A stretch of 33,722 nucleotides of DNA from Candidatus Altarchaeales archaeon. GTDB taxonomy: Archaea > Altiarchaeota > Altiarchaeia > IMC4 > QMZM01. Shown here in pieces: positions 3,414-25,924 of the stretch (its first letter is position 1; the number at the start of each line of letters is the position of its first letter). The notes beneath the pieces are model-generated. The model was not told the origin of the DNA. It was given only the letters and a program-made list of their open reading frames with translations, and did not search any database. Made by a program: the position numbers and the translations under genes. Location of the stretch: assembly GCA_023252215.1 (NCBI GenBank), contig JAHEXG010000009.1:1-33722 (forward strand), read 5' to 3'.

Positions 3414-3794
3414 ATGGATGGGAACGTTTTTACTATGGGGCTTCTTGCGCATCACGAGGGTCTAAGGGATAAACGGCTTTTTGAGCTTTTGGTTGACAGC
3501 ATAGTCGAGGATGAGGAGTTGTGCGAGGCCCATATGCATGTCAACGGCGACGAGGAGTTCCGGCTGGAATTGGAGGAGAACCTGGAGGAGGATGTGCGCA
3601 GCATACGCGTATCGGTTTATAGGCTGCTTAGCGAGGAACGCGTGCATTCTTCAGTTCATGCGGAGATGGATTACGAGCAAAGGGGTGGAGCGTATTATTT
3701 TGCAGAGGACGCTTCCCGGAAGATGACATTAGCAGACGTGTATTCCGAGATCATGGGCCTAGTCCGCAGGGTCGGGAAGGTCGAACTGGGATAG
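3414..3794 (+). CDS. acidic hypothetical protein
   Basis: 126-aa ORF starting 3 nt after the ZnR-B stop. Confidence 0.65.
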   Translation: MDGNVFTMGLLAHHEGLRDKRLFELLVDSIVEDEELCEAHMHVNGDEEFRLELEENLEEDVRSIRVSVYRLLSEERVHSSVHAEMDYEQRGGAYYFAEDASRKMTLADVYSEIMGLVRRVGKVELG

Positions 3795-3896
3795 GTTTTT
3801 TTAGTTTCTTATTTATATTTTCTAAACTAGAGGATATAATAGACATATTTTTTTTTGCAGGCCTTGCAGCGAATATATGCGTGGAGGGATTATAAT

Positions 3897-4238
3897 ATGG
3901 GTCTTGTGGACACGGCTAAATACATGCATAAAAGCAGCCTTGACTGCGTTCTGGGCATTCTTACAAGCGACGAATTCGCCGAGAAAGGAGAGCACATCGT
4001 CAGGGGCAGGAGCATTTTATCCAGCGTGGTAGGCCCTGCAAAAAAGAGATATCTGAGGACTGACCTGCAGAAGATCGTAGTTGACAGCGTTAGCGCGTTG
4101 CGTATTTGGGGGGATGAGGAGTACATCCGGGAGATGGAGGAAAAATACGCTGTGGACCTTGATGAGAGCATGTTGAGGGTCGTTCTGACCGAGTGCGGGA
4201 AGCAGTCGTTCCAGGAATACGAGAAAAGGGATATATAA
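3897..4238 (+). CDS. hypothetical protein
   Basis: ORF 3855-4238; ATG at 3897 (MGLVDTAKYMHK) is preceded by ggaggg and is the more likely start. Confidence 0.6.
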   Translation: MGLVDTAKYMHKSSLDCVLGILTSDEFAEKGEHIVRGRSILSSVVGPAKKRYLRTDLQKIVVDSVSALRIWGDEEYIREMEEKYAVDLDESMLRVVLTECGKQSFQEYEKRDI

Positions 4239-4320
4239 ACTCAGAGCTCATAAGCGTCATCATATGTCCCCGCGGGAATCAGTTATGCTTTTTCTCATCA
4301 CTGTTTTTTTTTGTTTTTTC

Positions 4321-5577
4321 TTATAGGAGGTCTTTTGGTATCTTCTGGTATTTGTATTGGTCTTCCAGTTTTTCCCTTTCCCGTATCAGCTCGTATTTTC
4401 CGTTTGACCTGATCAATACTTCCGCCGGCAGGAGTCTTGCGTTGTATCTGCTGGCCATTGAGTAGCCGTATGCGCCGGCGTCCATTAATGCCAGTATGTC
4501 TCCTGGCATGGTTTTGGGCATGAGGCGGTCTTTTGCGAAGAGGTCTCCTGATTCGCAGATGTTGCCTGCTATGTCGTATTTTTCGGTCTTTTCTTCTTTT
4601 TCGCGGCCTATGTTTTCTATCCTGTGGTAGGCGTCGTACATTGCCGGGCGTATGAGGGTGTTGAATCCTGCGTCTGTGTTTATGAATTTCTTGTAGGGGG
4701 TCTCTTTTACAGTCTGCACTGTTGTGAGCAGCATGCCGGTATTTGCTACGAGGTATCTTCCGGGTTCCAGCCACAGCGCGGGCTCATAGTTAAGCTGCTT
4801 GTTCCATTTTTCCACGACCGGGACGATCGCAGATGCCAGGTCGTCTGGTTTTATGATTTTTTCTTCCTGGTAGGGTATGCCCAGTCCTCCGCCGAGGTCT
4901 ATGTATTCCAGTTTTAGGTTTAGGTCTTTTTTGAGCCTGAGCGCGAATTCCATGATTTTTTCGCATGCTTCAGTGAATGGGGCTGCTTCTTTTATCTGGG
5001 AGCCTATGTGCGTCTGTACGCCTGTTATTTTTATGTTGTCCAGGCCGTTTGCCGTCTTATAAGCAGTATATGCGGCGTCTCCTTCTATGTGTATTCCGAA
5101 TTTTGATTCTTTTAGGCCGGTCGCTATTTTTGCGTTGGTCTTGGGGTTTACGCCGGGGTTTATGCGGAAGGATATTTTCGCGGTTTTTTTCTTTTCTTCT
5201 GCGGTTTTTTGTATCTTTAAGAGGTCCGGGACCGAGTCTGCGTTTATGACTGCGTCTGCGTCGAGGGCCTGGGCTATTTCTTCTTTTGTCTTGGAATTGT
5301 TGGTGTATATTATGTCCCGTCCGGCGAGGCCTATTTTTTGGGCTGTGAGTAGTTCTCCTCCCGATACTACGTCTGCTCCGGCTCCTTCTTTTTTGAGTAT
5401 CGCGCATAGTGCGAGGCTTGCGTTGGCTTTGTAGGCGTATAATATTTTGACTTTGGAGTATCTTTTGCTGAATGCGGAATAAAAGGTCCTGTAGTTTTTT
5501 ATCAGCAGTTCTTCGCTGTAGACGTATACCGGGGTTCCATGCTCTTCTGCTATCTTTTTGAGTTGGGATGAGTCCAT
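4321..5577 (-). CDS. lysA: diaminopimelate decarboxylase
   Basis: PLP-barrel decarboxylase: YAYKANA, GAGADVVSGGEL, HIGSQI, DLGGGLGIPY, EPGRYLVANTG, CESGDLFAKDR. Confidence 0.95.
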   Translation of the reverse strand: MDSSQLKKIAEEHGTPVYVYSEELLIKNYRTFYSAFSKRYSKVKILYAYKANASLALCAILKKEGAGADVVSGGELLTAQKIGLAGRDIIYTNNSKTKEEIAQALDADAVINADSVPDLLKIQKTAEEKKKTAKISFRINPGVNPKTNAKIATGLKESKFGIHIEGDAAYTAYKTANGLDNIKITGVQTHIGSQIKEAAPFTEACEKIMEFALRLKKDLNLKLEYIDLGGGLGIPYQEEKIIKPDDLASAIVPVVEKWNKQLNYEPALWLEPGRYLVANTGMLLTTVQTVKETPYKKFINTDAGFNTLIRPAMYDAYHRIENIGREKEEKTEKYDIAGNICESGDLFAKDRLMPKTMPGDILALMDAGAYGYSMASRYNARLLPAEVLIRSNGKYELIREREKLEDQYKYQKIPKDLL

Positions 5578-5707
5578 TTTATGAGGTGAATCCTTTTTTT
5601 TGCGCGTTTTTTATCTATTATTATTTGGCGGCTATATATCGCTCTTGGAGTGCATGTTTTTATAGTCCGGGGATAAATAAGATTAATGCCTTGATAGTTG
5701 TTTTATA

Positions 5708-5935
5708 ATGACAGAAAACGTAGAAGTCCTCCTGGAAGAATTGAGAAGAAGGAATGCCGAGAAGAGGAGGCAGGCTCTCTTGAAGGATCTGGCCGGAGCG
5801 GATGGGACAGACGGAGCCGGATCCGTAATAGGAGATAACAAGGGCAGTACGGGCAAAGAGACTGTGAAAGTGGTCGTGGCCCGGGGCCATAATGACTTGC
5901 ACGAGGTTGCTTCAAGGATAAAGGGGAAAAAATGA
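5708..5935 (+). CDS. small charged hypothetical protein
   Basis: 75-aa ORF; ATGA overlap (5932-5935) with the DUF835 protein gene. Confidence 0.6.
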   Translation: MTENVEVLLEELRRRNAEKRRQALLKDLAGADGTDGAGSVIGDNKGSTGKETVKVVVARGHNDLHEVASRIKGKK

Positions 5936-6828
5936 CGGGCATAGCTATCGCTTCTCTGATTACTCCGCAGGGTATGCATTATGAGTTGAGCGATGAATTG
6001 GTTCTTGGAATCGATCTATTGGCTGTCGTTATTTCTGTTTTGGCTTTGGTTTACTGGGTCAAGCTTTATCGCAAGCTTTATAAGTCCGACCGGCGGGAAA
6101 CCCAGGGATGGGCGTGGTTGTCTGCTGCGGTGCTGGGCATATTGTTCTTTAACATTTCCAGCATCTATATGTTGTTTTTGAATGAGCCGGTCTACGAGCT
6201 TATAAACATCGTCGGAAGGACCCTTATAGCAGTATCGATGACCGTAGGCGCGTATCTGCTTTATTCTCCCATGAAAAAGGGAGCGCTCTATAGGTTCGTC
6301 TCTGTGACCCCGGTCGCTGAAAAAGAGGGAGAGAAGACCAGCATCATGGAGAACGTTAGGAAGGGCCACAGTTATCTTGTGGAGGAGGAAAAGCCCAAAA
6401 AGGCTATCGGGGTCTTCGTGGACCTTGTTACTCACGGGTCGCAGGGCTTGTACATAACTCGCAGGTATCCGAAGGAGGTAAGAGAAGACTATAACTTGAA
6501 GGTTACGCCCATAATCTGGCTCAATCATGAGAAGACGGGAGAAGAGCATATTAATCCCACGGACATATCGGAGCTGTCGCATACCATTAAGGAATTCATC
6601 AAGAAGACCGGCGACGGCGTAGTGCTCATCGACGGCCTGGAGTACCTGATAACCCAGAACGAATACAAGGACATACTCAAATTCGTACAGTCCCTCAACG
6701 ACAGCATCGTAGTCAGCAGCTCCCGTCTCATAATCCCGGTCGACCCTTTCAGCCTGGATGCGCAGCAGTTACATCTCCTGAAAAGGGACCTGGAGGTCCT
6801 GAAAGACGGCAGCGGTAAGGTAGTCTGA
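5932..6828 (+). CDS. membrane protein with C-terminal DUF835-like domain
   Basis: Three or more N-terminal TM helices, then SYLVEEE..GLYITRRYPKEVR..IIWLNHE..GVVLIDGLEYLITQNEY, a pattern of archaeal DUF835. Confidence 0.8.
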   Translation: MTGIAIASLITPQGMHYELSDELVLGIDLLAVVISVLALVYWVKLYRKLYKSDRRETQGWAWLSAAVLGILFFNISSIYMLFLNEPVYELINIVGRTLIAVSMTVGAYLLYSPMKKGALYRFVSVTPVAEKEGEKTSIMENVRKGHSYLVEEEKPKKAIGVFVDLVTHGSQGLYITRRYPKEVREDYNLKVTPIIWLNHEKTGEEHINPTDISELSHTIKEFIKKTGDGVVLIDGLEYLITQNEYKDILKFVQSLNDSIVVSSSRLIIPVDPFSLDAQQLHLLKRDLEVLKDGSGKVV

Positions 6829-6836
6829 TCCTTTTT

Positions 6837-7403
6837 TTGCATGAAATGATCTCATTAGTTTATAGGTCCCGGCTTTATAGAGAACTCTTGGATAAGTATG
6901 TAAAGCCCGGAGACGTGGTGATAGAGATCGGCCCCCATGTGGGAAGCGCAACGAAGCTTTATTTTGGCAGGACGAAGTTGACTGTGGCAGTCGATATAGG
7001 CGTCCAGTCTGAGGCGGCTTTCAGGAAGTTGGGGGAAAATAGTTCTAACTTGTTTTTTTTAAGAGACGATGCCCGCAGCTTTGATGCGGTCAAGGCTGTT
7101 TTGGAGAAGACTCAGAGATGCGACGTTCTTGCCGTGGATTTGGGAGGGGGGCGTTTTGCGGATACGGTGTTCAAGGTATGGGCTGTGTGGTCCGGGGTTT
7201 TTCGTCCACGCGTTTCAGTGGTAAGGAATCGCAGCATCGCGGAATTCGTCCAGAAGGCAAAGGTCGAGGATGCTGCGCTTCTGGGGGAATTCCCTGACGA
7301 CGGCTGGCTGTCTATGTGGGGCAGGACCGTTCCTTCGCGCCTGAAAGAGCAGTTGGATGAATTCTCTTTTTGGGTCGATCCTTCGGGTATAAAAAAGGTT
7401 TGA
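6837..7403 (+). CDS. SAM-dependent methyltransferase-like protein
   Basis: VVIEIGPHVGSATKLYF (motif I), TVAVDIG, DVLAVDLGGG. 6837 is a TTG start; ATG at 6846 is an alternative. Confidence 0.6.
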   Translation: MHEMISLVYRSRLYRELLDKYVKPGDVVIEIGPHVGSATKLYFGRTKLTVAVDIGVQSEAAFRKLGENSSNLFFLRDDARSFDAVKAVLEKTQRCDVLAVDLGGGRFADTVFKVWAVWSGVFRPRVSVVRNRSIAEFVQKAKVEDAALLGEFPDDGWLSMWGRTVPSRLKEQLDEFSFWVDPSGIKKV

Positions 7404-21715: not shown

Positions 21716-23254
21716 ATGAAATTCTCCATGGACTGCGAGCTCACCATGAGCAAGAAACTGGAAGGGATAAACATAGAACTGCTGCTGAACAAATCGTTCG
21801 ACCTTCTGAACAAGGGCGCACCACCCGGTGCTGGTGCTTCCATTAAAAAGTCAAGAGTTTCCGGCGACAAGGTCTTTCTGACTATCGAGTCTGGCAGGTT
21901 CGTCAGGCCCCATGACGCAGTCTTCCGTTTGAAGAATTTCCTCAGCCAGCACCTTGGAAAAGAGCATCACATAGGTGTCAAAGAAATAAATGCTTCCCAC
22001 TATGAGATCGAGTTTGAACTAGACAAAGAGCCTTTAAAGGATTTCAGCTTAACATTTCAGACAATACCTCTCCTTAAAGAGCATATGAGAAGTATGGACT
22101 TTAAAGAAAAGACCTGCCATATGCACATGATAAATTTGTCAGAGGAATTCCTTAAAAACAATTACGTCGACCGCATGATCAGCTTAATCATTGACAAGAT
22201 CAACGCCCAGCACTACGAAGGAAAAGCAGAACACTGGGAACTCATGTGGGCGTCCCCCGAAAAAAAGAACGCATGGAACAAAGACCCCACGGTCGAGATG
22301 GAGAAGGCTAACTGGATAATGCACCGCGGCCGCGGGCAGTGGATATTCGGCCCGATGGCGACAAGGATCTTGAAGACCTTCGAATCGATAGTAATGGAAG
22401 AACTCGTCACCCCCGCAGGCTTTTCCGAGATGGTATTCCCGAAAGCCGAGACATGGGACATCTGGAAAAAATCCGGCCACGCAAAAAGCATATACGGAGA
22501 GATATATTACCTGTGCCAGCCCAAGACCCGGGACAAAGAATACTGGGAAGACGTGATCGACACCTACAAGATAACAGGCGAAGTGCCACTGCACCTCATC
22601 AAAGACAAAATAAAGGAACCGATCGGGGGCATCACATACGCGCAGTGCCCGGCATTCTGGCCCTTCCTCGACGGAAGGACCATCGCGGACGAAAGTTTGC
22701 CGCTGAAGGTATTTGACCGCTCGGGAACATCCATGCGATACGAATCAGGCGGCATACACGGGATCGAGCGCGTGGATGAGTTCCACCGCATAGAACTGGT
22801 CTGGTCAGGCTACCCGGAACAAGTCCGCGAAGTGCGCAAGAAGATCGTGGACTGCTACAAACACATATTCAACGACATACTCGACCTGGAATGGCGCATG
22901 GCCTGGGTCACCCCCTGGTTCATGGCACAGGAAGGACTGGTCGGAGTAAAAGACGAATCAGAGAAGCGCGACATTGGGACGATAGACTTCGAATCATACC
23001 TGCCATACCGAGGAACACGCAAGGAATCAGAGTGGCTGGAGTTCCAGAACGCGTCGAATAATGGGGATAAGTACACCAAGGGCTTCAACGTGAAGTCGCA
23101 GAAGGGGACGGAACTATGGAGCGGGTGTACGGGGATAGGGATGGAACGCTGGCTGGCGACGTTCACGGCGCAGAAGGGATTGGATATGGAGAAGTGGCCG
23201 AAAGAATTCCTAAAACGATTCGGAGAAATCCCAACAGAAATTAAATTTTTGTAA
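21716..23254 (+). CDS. serS: seryl-tRNA synthetase, type-2 (methanogenic-type, zinc-dependent)
   Basis: 512 aa; YAQCPAFWPFLDGRTI, FHRIELVWSGYP, LWSGCTGIGMERWLATFTAQKGLD; Cys/Glu/Cys positions match the Zn ligands known for the methanogenic-type enzyme. Confidence 0.88.
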   Translation: MKFSMDCELTMSKKLEGINIELLLNKSFDLLNKGAPPGAGASIKKSRVSGDKVFLTIESGRFVRPHDAVFRLKNFLSQHLGKEHHIGVKEINASHYEIEFELDKEPLKDFSLTFQTIPLLKEHMRSMDFKEKTCHMHMINLSEEFLKNNYVDRMISLIIDKINAQHYEGKAEHWELMWASPEKKNAWNKDPTVEMEKANWIMHRGRGQWIFGPMATRILKTFESIVMEELVTPAGFSEMVFPKAETWDIWKKSGHAKSIYGEIYYLCQPKTRDKEYWEDVIDTYKITGEVPLHLIKDKIKEPIGGITYAQCPAFWPFLDGRTIADESLPLKVFDRSGTSMRYESGGIHGIERVDEFHRIELVWSGYPEQVREVRKKIVDCYKHIFNDILDLEWRMAWVTPWFMAQEGLVGVKDESEKRDIGTIDFESYLPYRGTRKESEWLEFQNASNNGDKYTKGFNVKSQKGTELWSGCTGIGMERWLATFTAQKGLDMEKWPKEFLKRFGEIPTEIKFL

Positions 23255-23318
23255 TTCAGCAGTGAGGCCGAGTCATTAGACGAATGCCTCACACGGTGCG
23301 AGCCGACGTTCGTCAGCT

Positions 23319-23354
23319 CTTGGGGAAGTGCCGACTAAAATTAAATTCTTATAA
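23319..23354 (+). pseudogene. duplicated 3'-terminal fragment of a serS-like gene
   Basis: ctt ggg gaa gtg ccg act aaa att aaa ttc tta taa = LGEVPTKIKFL* vs serS end FGEIPTEIKFL*; 26/36 nt identical, about half of the differing codons synonymous. Confidence 0.6.
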
Positions 23355-23356
23355 TG

Positions 23357-23794
23357 TTACTCTAAATACTCTTCCGGCGTCTTTATCCCGACCTCTTTTA
23401 CCTCGTCGTATTCCGAATCGTAGGTCAATAGTACGCTTCCGTACAGAAAGGAGGTTGCCAGGATCACGCTGTCCACGTATGAAAGGGTTTTTTGGTTCCG
23501 GGAGTACTGCGCCTTGAAGTATCCCGCGAGAATAGCAGTCTCAGGCGTTGTGTTCGCTACATAGAAGTTTTGGCGCATGAATAGAATGATCGTCGGTATC
23601 ATTTCCTCTTTTTTACTGCGTATGCAGACTGTGACTAGTTCCGAGAGGGTGCAGACGCTGACTACTGCTTTTAGTTCCTTGGAGACGATCTTTTCAAGGA
23701 GTACGCCGACGATGTCTTTTCCTTCTTCGGCAAAGAAATATTTCAGGAAAACGCAGGTATCAAGAAGAACCAAGTCTTCGCTTTTCCCGTCCAT
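23357..23794 (-). CDS. PIN-domain (VapC-like) toxin
   Basis: LLDTCVFLKYFF, LSELVT, YVDSVILATSFLYGSVLLTYDSEYDEV: PIN acidic residues. ORF can extend to 23821; ATG at 23794 reduces the overlap with vapB. Confidence 0.85.
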   Translation of the reverse strand: MDGKSEDLVLLDTCVFLKYFFAEEGKDIVGVLLEKIVSKELKAVVSVCTLSELVTVCIRSKKEEMIPTIILFMRQNFYVANTTPETAILAGYFKAQYSRNQKTLSYVDSVILATSFLYGSVLLTYDSEYDEVKEVGIKTPEEYLE

Positions 23795-23972
23795 AATCCT
23801 CCTCCCGCAGTTCTCTGACAACCGAGACTGCCTTTTTTTCGGATTTGAGAGCCCCTTCCAGTTCCTGAGGCTTTATCTTAGGCCTTGAGAGGACCCTTAT
23901 CTCTATGTTGCCCACGGTAAGCTGGTTCGCCCAAGGCTGCTTTAGGTCGATCAATCTCTCTGCCTTTTTCAT
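23760..23972 (-). CDS. VapB-like antitoxin (putative)
   Basis: 70-aa charged ORF overlapping the start of the PIN gene, same strand. Confidence 0.65.
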   Translation of the reverse strand: MKKAERLIDLKQPWANQLTVGNIEIRVLSRPKIKPQELEGALKSEKKAVSVVRELREEDYGREKRRLGSS

Positions 23973-24034
23973 AGTTCTTATTTTGTTTTAGGAACTTATT
24001 AACGGCCTTAGGCCAAAGAGAGTGCCTCGGAGAA

Positions 24035-24060
24035 TCGGTATGGAACGATGGCTTGCGAAT
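24035..24060 (+). pseudogene. short serS-like remnant (IGMERWLA)
   Basis: atc ggt atg gaa cga tgg ctt gcg vs serS ata ggg atg gaa cgc tgg ctg gcg: 8/8 aa identical, all 4 nt differences synonymous. Confidence 0.4.
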
Positions 24061-24098
24061 TCTGCCAGGATAACTGAATGTGTAACGGGAGAAAAAAG

Positions 24099-24758
24099 TC
24101 AATGAACCTTCATACTATCATCGCCCAATACAACCTGCCCTTCCAGGTTACTCCAAAGAGCCATTATAGAGACAAGCGATCCGGGCTCTTTTTGATCCGT
24201 CATCAACTTCATAATATTCTTCTTGGTCATATTAACGGATTTTTCAACTGCCTCTTTAACACTGTTACCTTTTAGCAGGGATATAACTATCAGATTAGAC
24301 GGCTCCAGGAATAGTTTGGCAGTCTCATCCTTGAGGGGTTTAGCAAACCATGTTCCATCGATCCAGAAAGTAAAGGGGGATCGATAGCCGATAAAGCATC
24401 CGCCGCTTTTCGTACAGGATGCGCCAAGTGAGGCTCCGGCGTAACAGGCTCGTGCATATACTATCCGGTTGCTCAGCAACTCGTGATTTACGTTCTCTTC
24501 AACGAGGATCTCTTCTACATCGTCTATCTTGTCGCCGTAGATGCGATTAGAGTCCCCGTGGGCGTTAAAGAAGATAACCGTAGGATGCTTCTCAGAGACT
24601 ATGTCTTTAAAATTCTTCTTTGTCAGGCGAGGGTTAGCCAGATCCAAAACGTTAATGTCTTTTTTCTCGGCATATTCAATCACTTCGCCTGCATAATGAT
24701 ATAAGTAGTAAGTGGCATCATCGTATGCTGGCCGGGTGACCAAGAGGCACTTTTTCAA
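24099..24758 (-). CDS. caspase/CHAT-like (caspase-haemoglobinase fold) putative cysteine protease
   Basis: 219 aa; VIFFNAHGDS (H67-G68) and IVYARACYAGASLGASC (C105) follow the His-Gly ... Ala-Cys dyad layout of clan CD peptidases. Confidence 0.7.
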   Translation of the reverse strand: MKKCLLVTRPAYDDATYYLYHYAGEVIEYAEKKDINVLDLANPRLTKKNFKDIVSEKHPTVIFFNAHGDSNRIYGDKIDDVEEILVEENVNHELLSNRIVYARACYAGASLGASCTKSGGCFIGYRSPFTFWIDGTWFAKPLKDETAKLFLEPSNLIVISLLKGNSVKEAVEKSVNMTKKNIMKLMTDQKEPGSLVSIMALWSNLEGQVVLGDDSMKVH

Positions 24759-24759
24759 A

Positions 24760-25014
24760 TTATTCGGCTAGGGTTTTGGAGAATTCACCGCTTGCAACAG
24801 CCCGGATAAACTTTAGTTGCATATCTATGAAGCTGCGGCCTATCTCATCCTCGGCTTCTACGTGCTTTTTCAGCTCCTGCTTTGTATAGACGCCCTTTCC
24901 GCCGACAGAAAACTTGTAATTCTGAGGGACGCTAACCTCCAGACGCCATAAAACAAGCTCCTTGATCTCATCATCAAGAATCTCTTTCTCCTGCTGTGTT
25001 CTCTCTTTATTCAT
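24760..25014 (-). CDS. small protein, partner of the caspase-like protein
   Basis: 84-aa ORF; ATGA overlap with the upstream 65-aa ORF; 1-nt gap to the protease ORF. Confidence 0.75.
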   Translation of the reverse strand: MNKERTQQEKEILDDEIKELVLWRLEVSVPQNYKFSVGGKGVYTKQELKKHVEAEDEIGRSFIDMQLKFIRAVASGEFSKTLAE

Positions 25015-25208
25015 ATTATTCCCACCAAAACAAGCTTATCAATGATCTTCCTGCCAAGCGAGGAATCATTCTTGACCTCGATCATTGCCGCATTCCAAGT
25101 AAAAGGCTTGCTATCGACAACAACAATGATATCATCGGCCCTGATACTTTCCGGGACATTTGCAAACACCCTCAGAAATTTAGCCCTCTTGTCCTCCATG
25201 TTAACCAT
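25011..25208 (-). CDS. small protein, first gene of the caspase-like operon
   Basis: 65-aa ORF (alternative ATG 25199) with IIVVVDSKPFTWNAAMIEVKNDSSLGRKIIDKL; ATGA overlap with the next gene. Confidence 0.75.
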   Translation of the reverse strand: MVNMEDKRAKFLRVFANVPESIRADDIIVVVDSKPFTWNAAMIEVKNDSSLGRKIIDKLVLVGII

Positions 25209-25337
25209 TTAGCGATAAATAGGATAAATACGCCTAGAAAGGATAATATATACACATAAAGGATTTATAAGACAGAACAGTTAGATACACCTATAACCCC
25301 CGTGGAAGGCGAATGCATAAATGGAGTGTGGGCTATG

Positions 25338-25374
25338 GAGCGGATGCACCCGCCAACCGGGGGGGCGGATGCTC
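25338..25374. terminator. GC-rich hairpin downstream of the CPHC thioredoxin-like gene
   Basis: GAGC...CCCGCC-aaccgggg-GGGCGG...GCTC nested arms, 11 nt after the 25385 stop codon (minus sense). Confidence 0.35.
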
Positions 25375-25384
25375 TCAAAGGGCG

Positions 25385-25924
25385 TCACATCAGTTGTTTC
25401 CTGTTCTTGTATATCAGCGCGATCATTGCTATCGCTATCAATGCCGCGAATCCTAGGATTAGCGGATCTGCTGTTGCGGCTTTTGGTTCTGGTAGCGTCG
25501 TTGTCGTGGTTGTCGGGTGGGTTGCGAGGTAGTCTGCGAGTTTTTGGTCTGGGTCGCTGCATCCGTTTTTTATGCAGTCGTTGATGGCGTTTGTCACTGC
25601 TACGTCTGTGTCTCCTTTGGCGTATCCTTCGAACATCTGGTCTCCTATGAAGGTGCCTGGGACTCCTTCTGCTGTTTTGTTGTATGCTTTGGCCATTGCG
25701 GTGAATATCTGGTTATTTGTCTGGTTGTTGAATACTTCGAAACTTTTGACTGTTAGCTGCGGGTATGTGTTTTGCATTTCCTGTATGAATGGCTTCATTT
25801 CTTCGCAGTGTGGGCATCCCTGGCCCCAGAAGAAGTATGTTGTTATTGTTCCTTTTGCGGTTTCCTGTGCAGAACATGTTGCTGCCAGGGCAGATAATGC
25901 GATAAGGATCATTAGTTTTTTCAT
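25385..25924 (-). CDS. exported thioredoxin/glutaredoxin-like protein with Thr linker and C-terminal TM
   Basis: Signal peptide, FFWGQGCPHCEEMKPF, PGTFIGDQMFEGY, TTTTTT linker, C-terminal TM and basic tail. Confidence 0.85.
   Translation of the reverse strand: MKKLMILIALSALAATCSAQETAKGTITTYFFWGQGCPHCEEMKPFIQEMQNTYPQLTVKSFEVFNNQTNNQIFTAMAKAYNKTAEGVPGTFIGDQMFEGYAKGDTDVAVTNAINDCIKNGCSDPDQKLADYLATHPTTTTTTLPEPKAATADPLILGFAALIAIAMIALIYKNRKQLM

Follow-up and report, generated by a model that had tools for sequence, protein, structure and literature searches.

Prokaryotic proteases of the caspase fold are mostly known in the form of large multidomain bacterial effectors. Among the described systems, CHAT proteases are known from phage defence (PMC10952713), and in the EACC1-caspase system, a proposed conflict system, a small 5' gene accompanies a caspase-superfamily gene (Kaur et al. 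2020, eLife 9:e52696, PMC7159879). EACC1 has a transmembrane helix, and the prokaryotes with this system are overwhelmingly multicellular (PMC7159879). For archaea, a 2012 survey of prokaryotic caspase homologues reported metacaspases in five genomes only, all from Euryarchaeota (PMC3501461), and the main text of a 2026 survey of archaeal immunity mentions neither caspase nor CHAT nor protease (PMC12988326). Here we describe an operon encoding two small proteins and a predicted caspase-fold protease on a contig of 33,722 nucleotides (nt) from Candidatus Altarchaeales archaeon (JAHEXG010000009.1, positions 1 to 33,722; hereafter the window). No description of this three-gene module was found in open-access papers, absence there not being proof. 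Its genes, with product lengths in amino acids (aa), are:

25011..25208, minus strand: first gene of the operon, soluble 65-aa partner of the S65 family, probably a paralogue of S84
24760..25014, minus strand: soluble 84-aa partner of the S84 family, modelled as alpha-beta-beta-alpha-alpha, whose profile matches adjoin the protease across archaea
24099..24758, minus strand: 219-aa cysteine protease of predicted caspase/CHAT fold with a TTG start and the dyad H67 and C105, as indicated by AlphaFold2 model, Foldseek search and conservation

A sequence-only reading of the window had proposed three tightly packed minus-strand genes of these lengths, the last with H67 and C105 as catalytic dyad, and coordinates, packing and dyad positions were all found as claimed. 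The 65-aa and 84-aa genes share a 4-nt ATGA overlap, and the stop codon of the latter is separated by a 1-nt gap from the TTG start of the 219-aa gene. This start is supported by a protease homologue from Pacearchaeota (L010), which has ATG at the aligned residue.

The window protease reached the cut-off of no Pfam, NCBIfam, PHROGs or PADLOC family, the curated ones for CHAT (PF12770), C14 and C25 included, and PDB sequence searches with the module proteins gave no match. In one homologue, a weak Pfam match to Peptidase C25 (E 0.023) remained below cut-off. An AlphaFold2 model built from four homologues reached a mean predicted local distance difference test (pLDDT) of 85.5 and a predicted TM-score of 0.87, the other four models being weaker (65-70). 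It displays an alpha/beta core in the order strand-helix-strand-helix-strand, H67, hairpin, strand, C105, strand and helical C-terminus, so that the histidine follows strand 3 and the cysteine strand 4. When this model was compared with the PDB using Foldseek, the best match was SAVED-CHAT (8tl0; E 4.5e-8, TM-score 0.64, 14-17% identity in the structural alignment), followed by caspases 4, 11 and 1, gingipain R, legumain and a C11 protease, and all matches at E<=0.001 belonged to clan CD. H67 and C105 are invariant in 39/39 full-length relatives (38 distinct, one locus having been counted twice), in which G75 never varies either and 38 carry D144. As the loop 134-141 was modelled with low confidence, the structure gives no view of the substrate pocket. 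Neither a SAVED nor a TPR sensor is fused to the single-domain protein, no cas genes belong to the module, and hydropathy analysis revealed no membrane segment in any of the three window proteins. Model and conservation bear out the caspase-haemoglobinase fold, the dyad and the lack of a fused sensor domain that the sequence-only reading had put forward, and indicate that the 219-aa protein is a compact, soluble, single-domain clan CD cysteine protease of predicted activity. The module protease profile also gave weak matches to large C25-gingipain-like archaeal proteins (L095, L096 and L098).

Archaeal genomes (397 for S65 and the protease) were searched with S84, S65 and protease profiles, which were trained on module members and were not restricted to module loci. 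The S84 profile recovered the same three-gene unit in many archaeal genomes and the protease profile added more. The unit consists of an open reading frame (ORF) of 60-68 aa (128 aa in L028), one of 70-84 aa and a protease of 206-234 aa, with intergenic gaps of -23 to +48 nt. All three genes are recognisable at 32 loci, one of which (in genome G003) has a truncated protease; a third module copy in G308 was seen apart from this count. A strong protease match was detected in 21/397 genomes and the S65 family in 19/397; all 19 also possess the protease, and S65 is present in 0/376 genomes lacking a strong protease match (Fisher's exact p ~1.7e-30). The two protease-positive genomes outside the S65 set harbour a two-gene form (G012) and a divergent form (G381). 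The small genes therefore accompany the protease elsewhere, as had been proposed, and since ~30 other loci repeat this order and spacing the ORF trio is real beyond chance. That a housekeeping peptidase might simply have ordinary small ORFs as unlinked neighbours, in favour of which the missing Pfam, NCBIfam, PHROGs and PADLOC matches could be cited, is scarcely credible: the three-gene order at ~30 loci and the strict co-occurrence refute it. The co-directional small upstream genes and the enzyme, kept as a unit and mobile, have the layout of a type II toxin-antitoxin (TA) system, as far as gene layout goes. Plasmid searches for the module found none.

For the two small partners, no family match above cut-off (Pfam, NCBIfam, PHROGs, PADLOC) and no PDB match at E<=0.001 were obtained. 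The AlphaFold2 model of S84 (pLDDT 87.2) shows a helix-strand-strand-helix-helix arrangement which, at a cut-off of E<=0.001, corresponds to no known fold in the PDB. With 19-residue hydropathy maxima of 1.06 for S65 and 0.54 for S84, neither has a transmembrane segment. In a profile-profile comparison the two families align with each other (E 1.4e-4, probability 52%), their profiles match weakly in both directions, and one small protein at L101 matches both (E 4e-6 and 4e-4), and on these grounds S65 and S84 probably arose by duplication. In two of ~30 S65 proteins (L028 and L089) an N-terminal extension is present; the two extensions are 43% identical to each other and that of L028 gives sub-threshold matches to MazE (E 0.056) and AbrB (E 0.015). 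These AbrB-like extensions could also mean that S65 and/or S84 are substrates of the protease, for instance DNA-binding regulators cleaved to alter transcription, and bacterial caspase cascades can indeed act on small regulatory partners. However, most S65 and all S84 proteins are devoid of a recognisable DNA-binding domain and the alignments show no conserved linker or cleavage motif, so that we consider a substrate role rather unlikely.

Several module copies are decayed. The protease has lost its N-terminus in G003 and its C-terminus in G177, and is interrupted by two TAA stops in G283, the small genes being largely kept in all three cases. In G445 an internal deletion removed the dyad region of the protease and the 65-aa gene is slightly short, and in G212:C1 the two small ORFs form a fusion with no protease behind it. 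The reverse, broken small genes beside an intact protease, was not found among the copies seen. Loss of the protease with retention of its partners is the direction of decay expected of a toxin. Pyrrolysine or stop read-through in G003 and G283 was considered and rejected, as the former is a truncation and the latter has TAA stops in a decayed gene. A whole-module pseudogene is present at L066 (G101:C16, 124.2-125.3 kb), in which all three genes have frameshifts and stops and the catalytic histidine is lost; for the same reasons programmed frameshifting in G101 was rejected.

Proteins encoded around 22 modules were compared with control stretches of the same genomes, the top 25 families being listed per scan. 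Among the families listed, MNT nucleotidyltransferases (4), Fic (3), AbiEi (2), AbiEii (2), HEPN (2), Csx1 and TnpB appeared around modules, and none of MNT, Fic, AbiE, HEPN, Csx1 or TnpB was listed for the control stretches. Csx1 is an occasional neighbour only. Distinct PADLOC families matched numbered 110 near modules versus 49 in controls, a difference that is indicative only. Such defence-type neighbours would also suit small proteins that act as sensors or adaptors activating the protease upon infection, the more so as the closest fold, SAVED-CHAT, is called an activated filament in its PDB title, that is, a CHAT protease switched on by a sensor. On the other hand, the partners are tiny, lack a recognisable ligand-binding domain and precede the enzyme in a translationally coupled order, and copies with partners and no protease are explained equally well or better by inhibition. 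An activating role is unlikely in our judgement.

A viral branch of the protease was also detected. The circular Caudoviricetes genome BK063666.1 (vir519), assigned to Methanofastidiosa, encodes a 248-aa protease homologue (gene 54) that keeps the dyad and has a C-terminal membrane helix, and, upstream and overlapping with it, a 66-aa protein (gene 53) resembling both S65 and S84. This two-gene version (L165, BK063666.1 30410-38837, positions 3723-4666) is annotated as hypothetical. Similar two-gene forms exist in G012:C49, which is virus-like, and in G422:C32. Divergent caspase-like ORFs in a virus- or plasmid-like context were observed at L004 (G012:C49, with three paralogous ~200-aa structural-looking proteins at 5000-6867) and, four in one archaeal genome, in G381 (L069-L072). 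Viral-contig scans with window-based queries gave no match, and two viral-contig matches of an L025 query were discarded as false positives, being helicase-like proteins that share a short motif. The two-gene versions in vir519, in virus-like G012:C49 and G381, and in G422:C32 could indicate that the protease is derived from viruses, where it would serve virion assembly, egress or superinfection exclusion, the cellular copies being relics or domesticated. Such an origin is very improbable, as the cellular copies, which have two small genes and for the most part lack a membrane helix, group apart from the viral ones and are more numerous, and the dyad is invariant, therefore most copies are not relics.

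The reading that we prefer, at about an even chance of being correct, is that the two upstream partners keep the protease silent until infection or stress frees it, in a TA-like or abortive-infection-like manner with the protease as toxin; activation by the partners and cleavage of them, though less likely, are serious competitors. S65 and S84 would be made first and bind the protease as a pair, keeping it inactive, and S65 might also repress the operon where the AbrB-like domain is present. Infection or stress would then remove or modify a partner, and the freed protease would cleave cellular or viral proteins, causing arrest or death of the cell. The antitoxin-like hints are the upstream position of the partners, the weak AbrB/MazE extension, the direction of decay and the defence-type neighbours. 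The toxin or defence module proposed by the sequence-only reading, with the partners as possible sensor, inhibitor or substrate, is thus favoured indirectly. Several points weigh against silencing by the partners. The AbrB match does not reach family cut-offs, and the L089 extension alone gives no AbrB or MazE match; with gene length taken into account, the excess of broken proteases lacks significance, the count being too small (0.62^5 = 0.09); the comparison of neighbourhoods is descriptive, not a formal test; two partners instead of one antitoxin are unusual; and none of the three components is represented by a PADLOC model. Inhibitor, activator and substrate roles of the partners are not separated by sequence evidence, and we infer inhibition, trigger, targets and any role of the module in cell death or defence. 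It is possible, if doubtful, that the module, together with its viral branch, represents a new archaeal class of TA or abortive-infection systems, in which a minimal soluble caspase is the toxin and a pair of duplicated inhibitors the antitoxin.

The surroundings of the module in the window comprise the following features:

25209..25264, no strand: A/T-rich stretch ahead of the operon that contains the direct repeats TAAATAGGATAA/TAGAAAGGATAA, by inference a possible promoter/operator
23255..25384, no strand: accessory segment with the PIN/70-aa pair and the three-gene module, missing at the same-genus G001 site
23322..23354, plus strand: second, imperfect copy of the serS 3' end (76% identity in 33 nt, E 0.9), which marks one edge of the accessory segment

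The sequence-only reading had placed the module in an accessory segment beside a VapBC-like pair, serS and redox genes, and this placement mostly stood. The gene for serS lies at 21716-23254 and thioredoxin-like genes start at 25385. In between, at 23357-23972 on the minus strand, a PIN toxin-like gene (23357-23821; PF01850, E 8.9e-14 in a Pfam scan) overlaps a 70-aa ORF that gave no Pfam match, forming the VapBC-like pair. As serS is directly followed by thioredoxin-like genes in G001, of the same genus, 23255-25384 is regarded as an accessory segment; the absence there, in a single relative, would fit gain as well as loss. Two serS remnants lie on the plus strand between serS and the module, one of motif 3 (IGMERWLA, 24034-24058) and one of the 3' end (EVPTKIKFL-stop, 23322-23354), and G001 too has a serS 3'-end repeat, which suggests that the serS 3' end may be an insertion hot spot. 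Most of the window organism's family lacks the module, and module loci turn up here and there in many families belonging to several phyla, including Altiarchaeota (L009, L011) and Pacearchaeota (L010). The protease tree intermixes families and phyla, the window clade containing Altiarchaeota, Pacearchaeota and families f94 and f105, and the window protease is 63% identical to the f105 copy from another phylum versus 22% to the copy of its own family in G012. Both G176 and G308 carry three divergent copies. To judge from the empty site and the tree, the module is accessory and horizontally spread.

New here are the probable S65/S84 paralogy, the weakly AbrB-like extension, the membrane-anchored two-gene version in an archaeal virus and the copies with broken proteases. 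A single-domain archaeal caspase with two dedicated partners, which moves among archaea of small genome size and has a counterpart in a virus, would offer a minimal, experimentally tractable model of caspase silencing and release; the module has a bearing on how caspase-based cell death originated, and is a candidate system in lineages sparse in known immune systems (PMC12988326).

Compared with described systems, the module shares the caspase/CHAT fold and the His-Cys dyad with SAVED-CHAT (8tl0), its best structural match, with TPR-CHAT of Craspase and with Borvo. Unlike SAVED-CHAT and TPR-CHAT, it has no fused SAVED, TPR or other sensor, its operon includes neither CRISPR nor cyclase genes, and it has two small partners. 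With C25 (gingipain), C11 and C14 metacaspases the protease has the clan CD fold and dyad in common, whereas it lacks the secretion signal and accessory domains of C25 and stays below every family cut-off. The EACC1-caspase system resembles it in pairing a small 5' gene with a caspase-superfamily gene, but here the partners number two, hydropathy analysis detected no transmembrane helix in them, and it is archaea that carry the module. Type II TA systems (MazEF/AbrB-type, VapBC) are similar in having the small genes first, translational overlap and patchy transfer, and possibly in the weakly AbrB-like extension of one partner at two loci. In contrast to these, the module has two partners and its enzyme is a predicted protease, not an RNase or similar; if that enzyme proves to be the toxin of a TA pair, the module would be categorically new.
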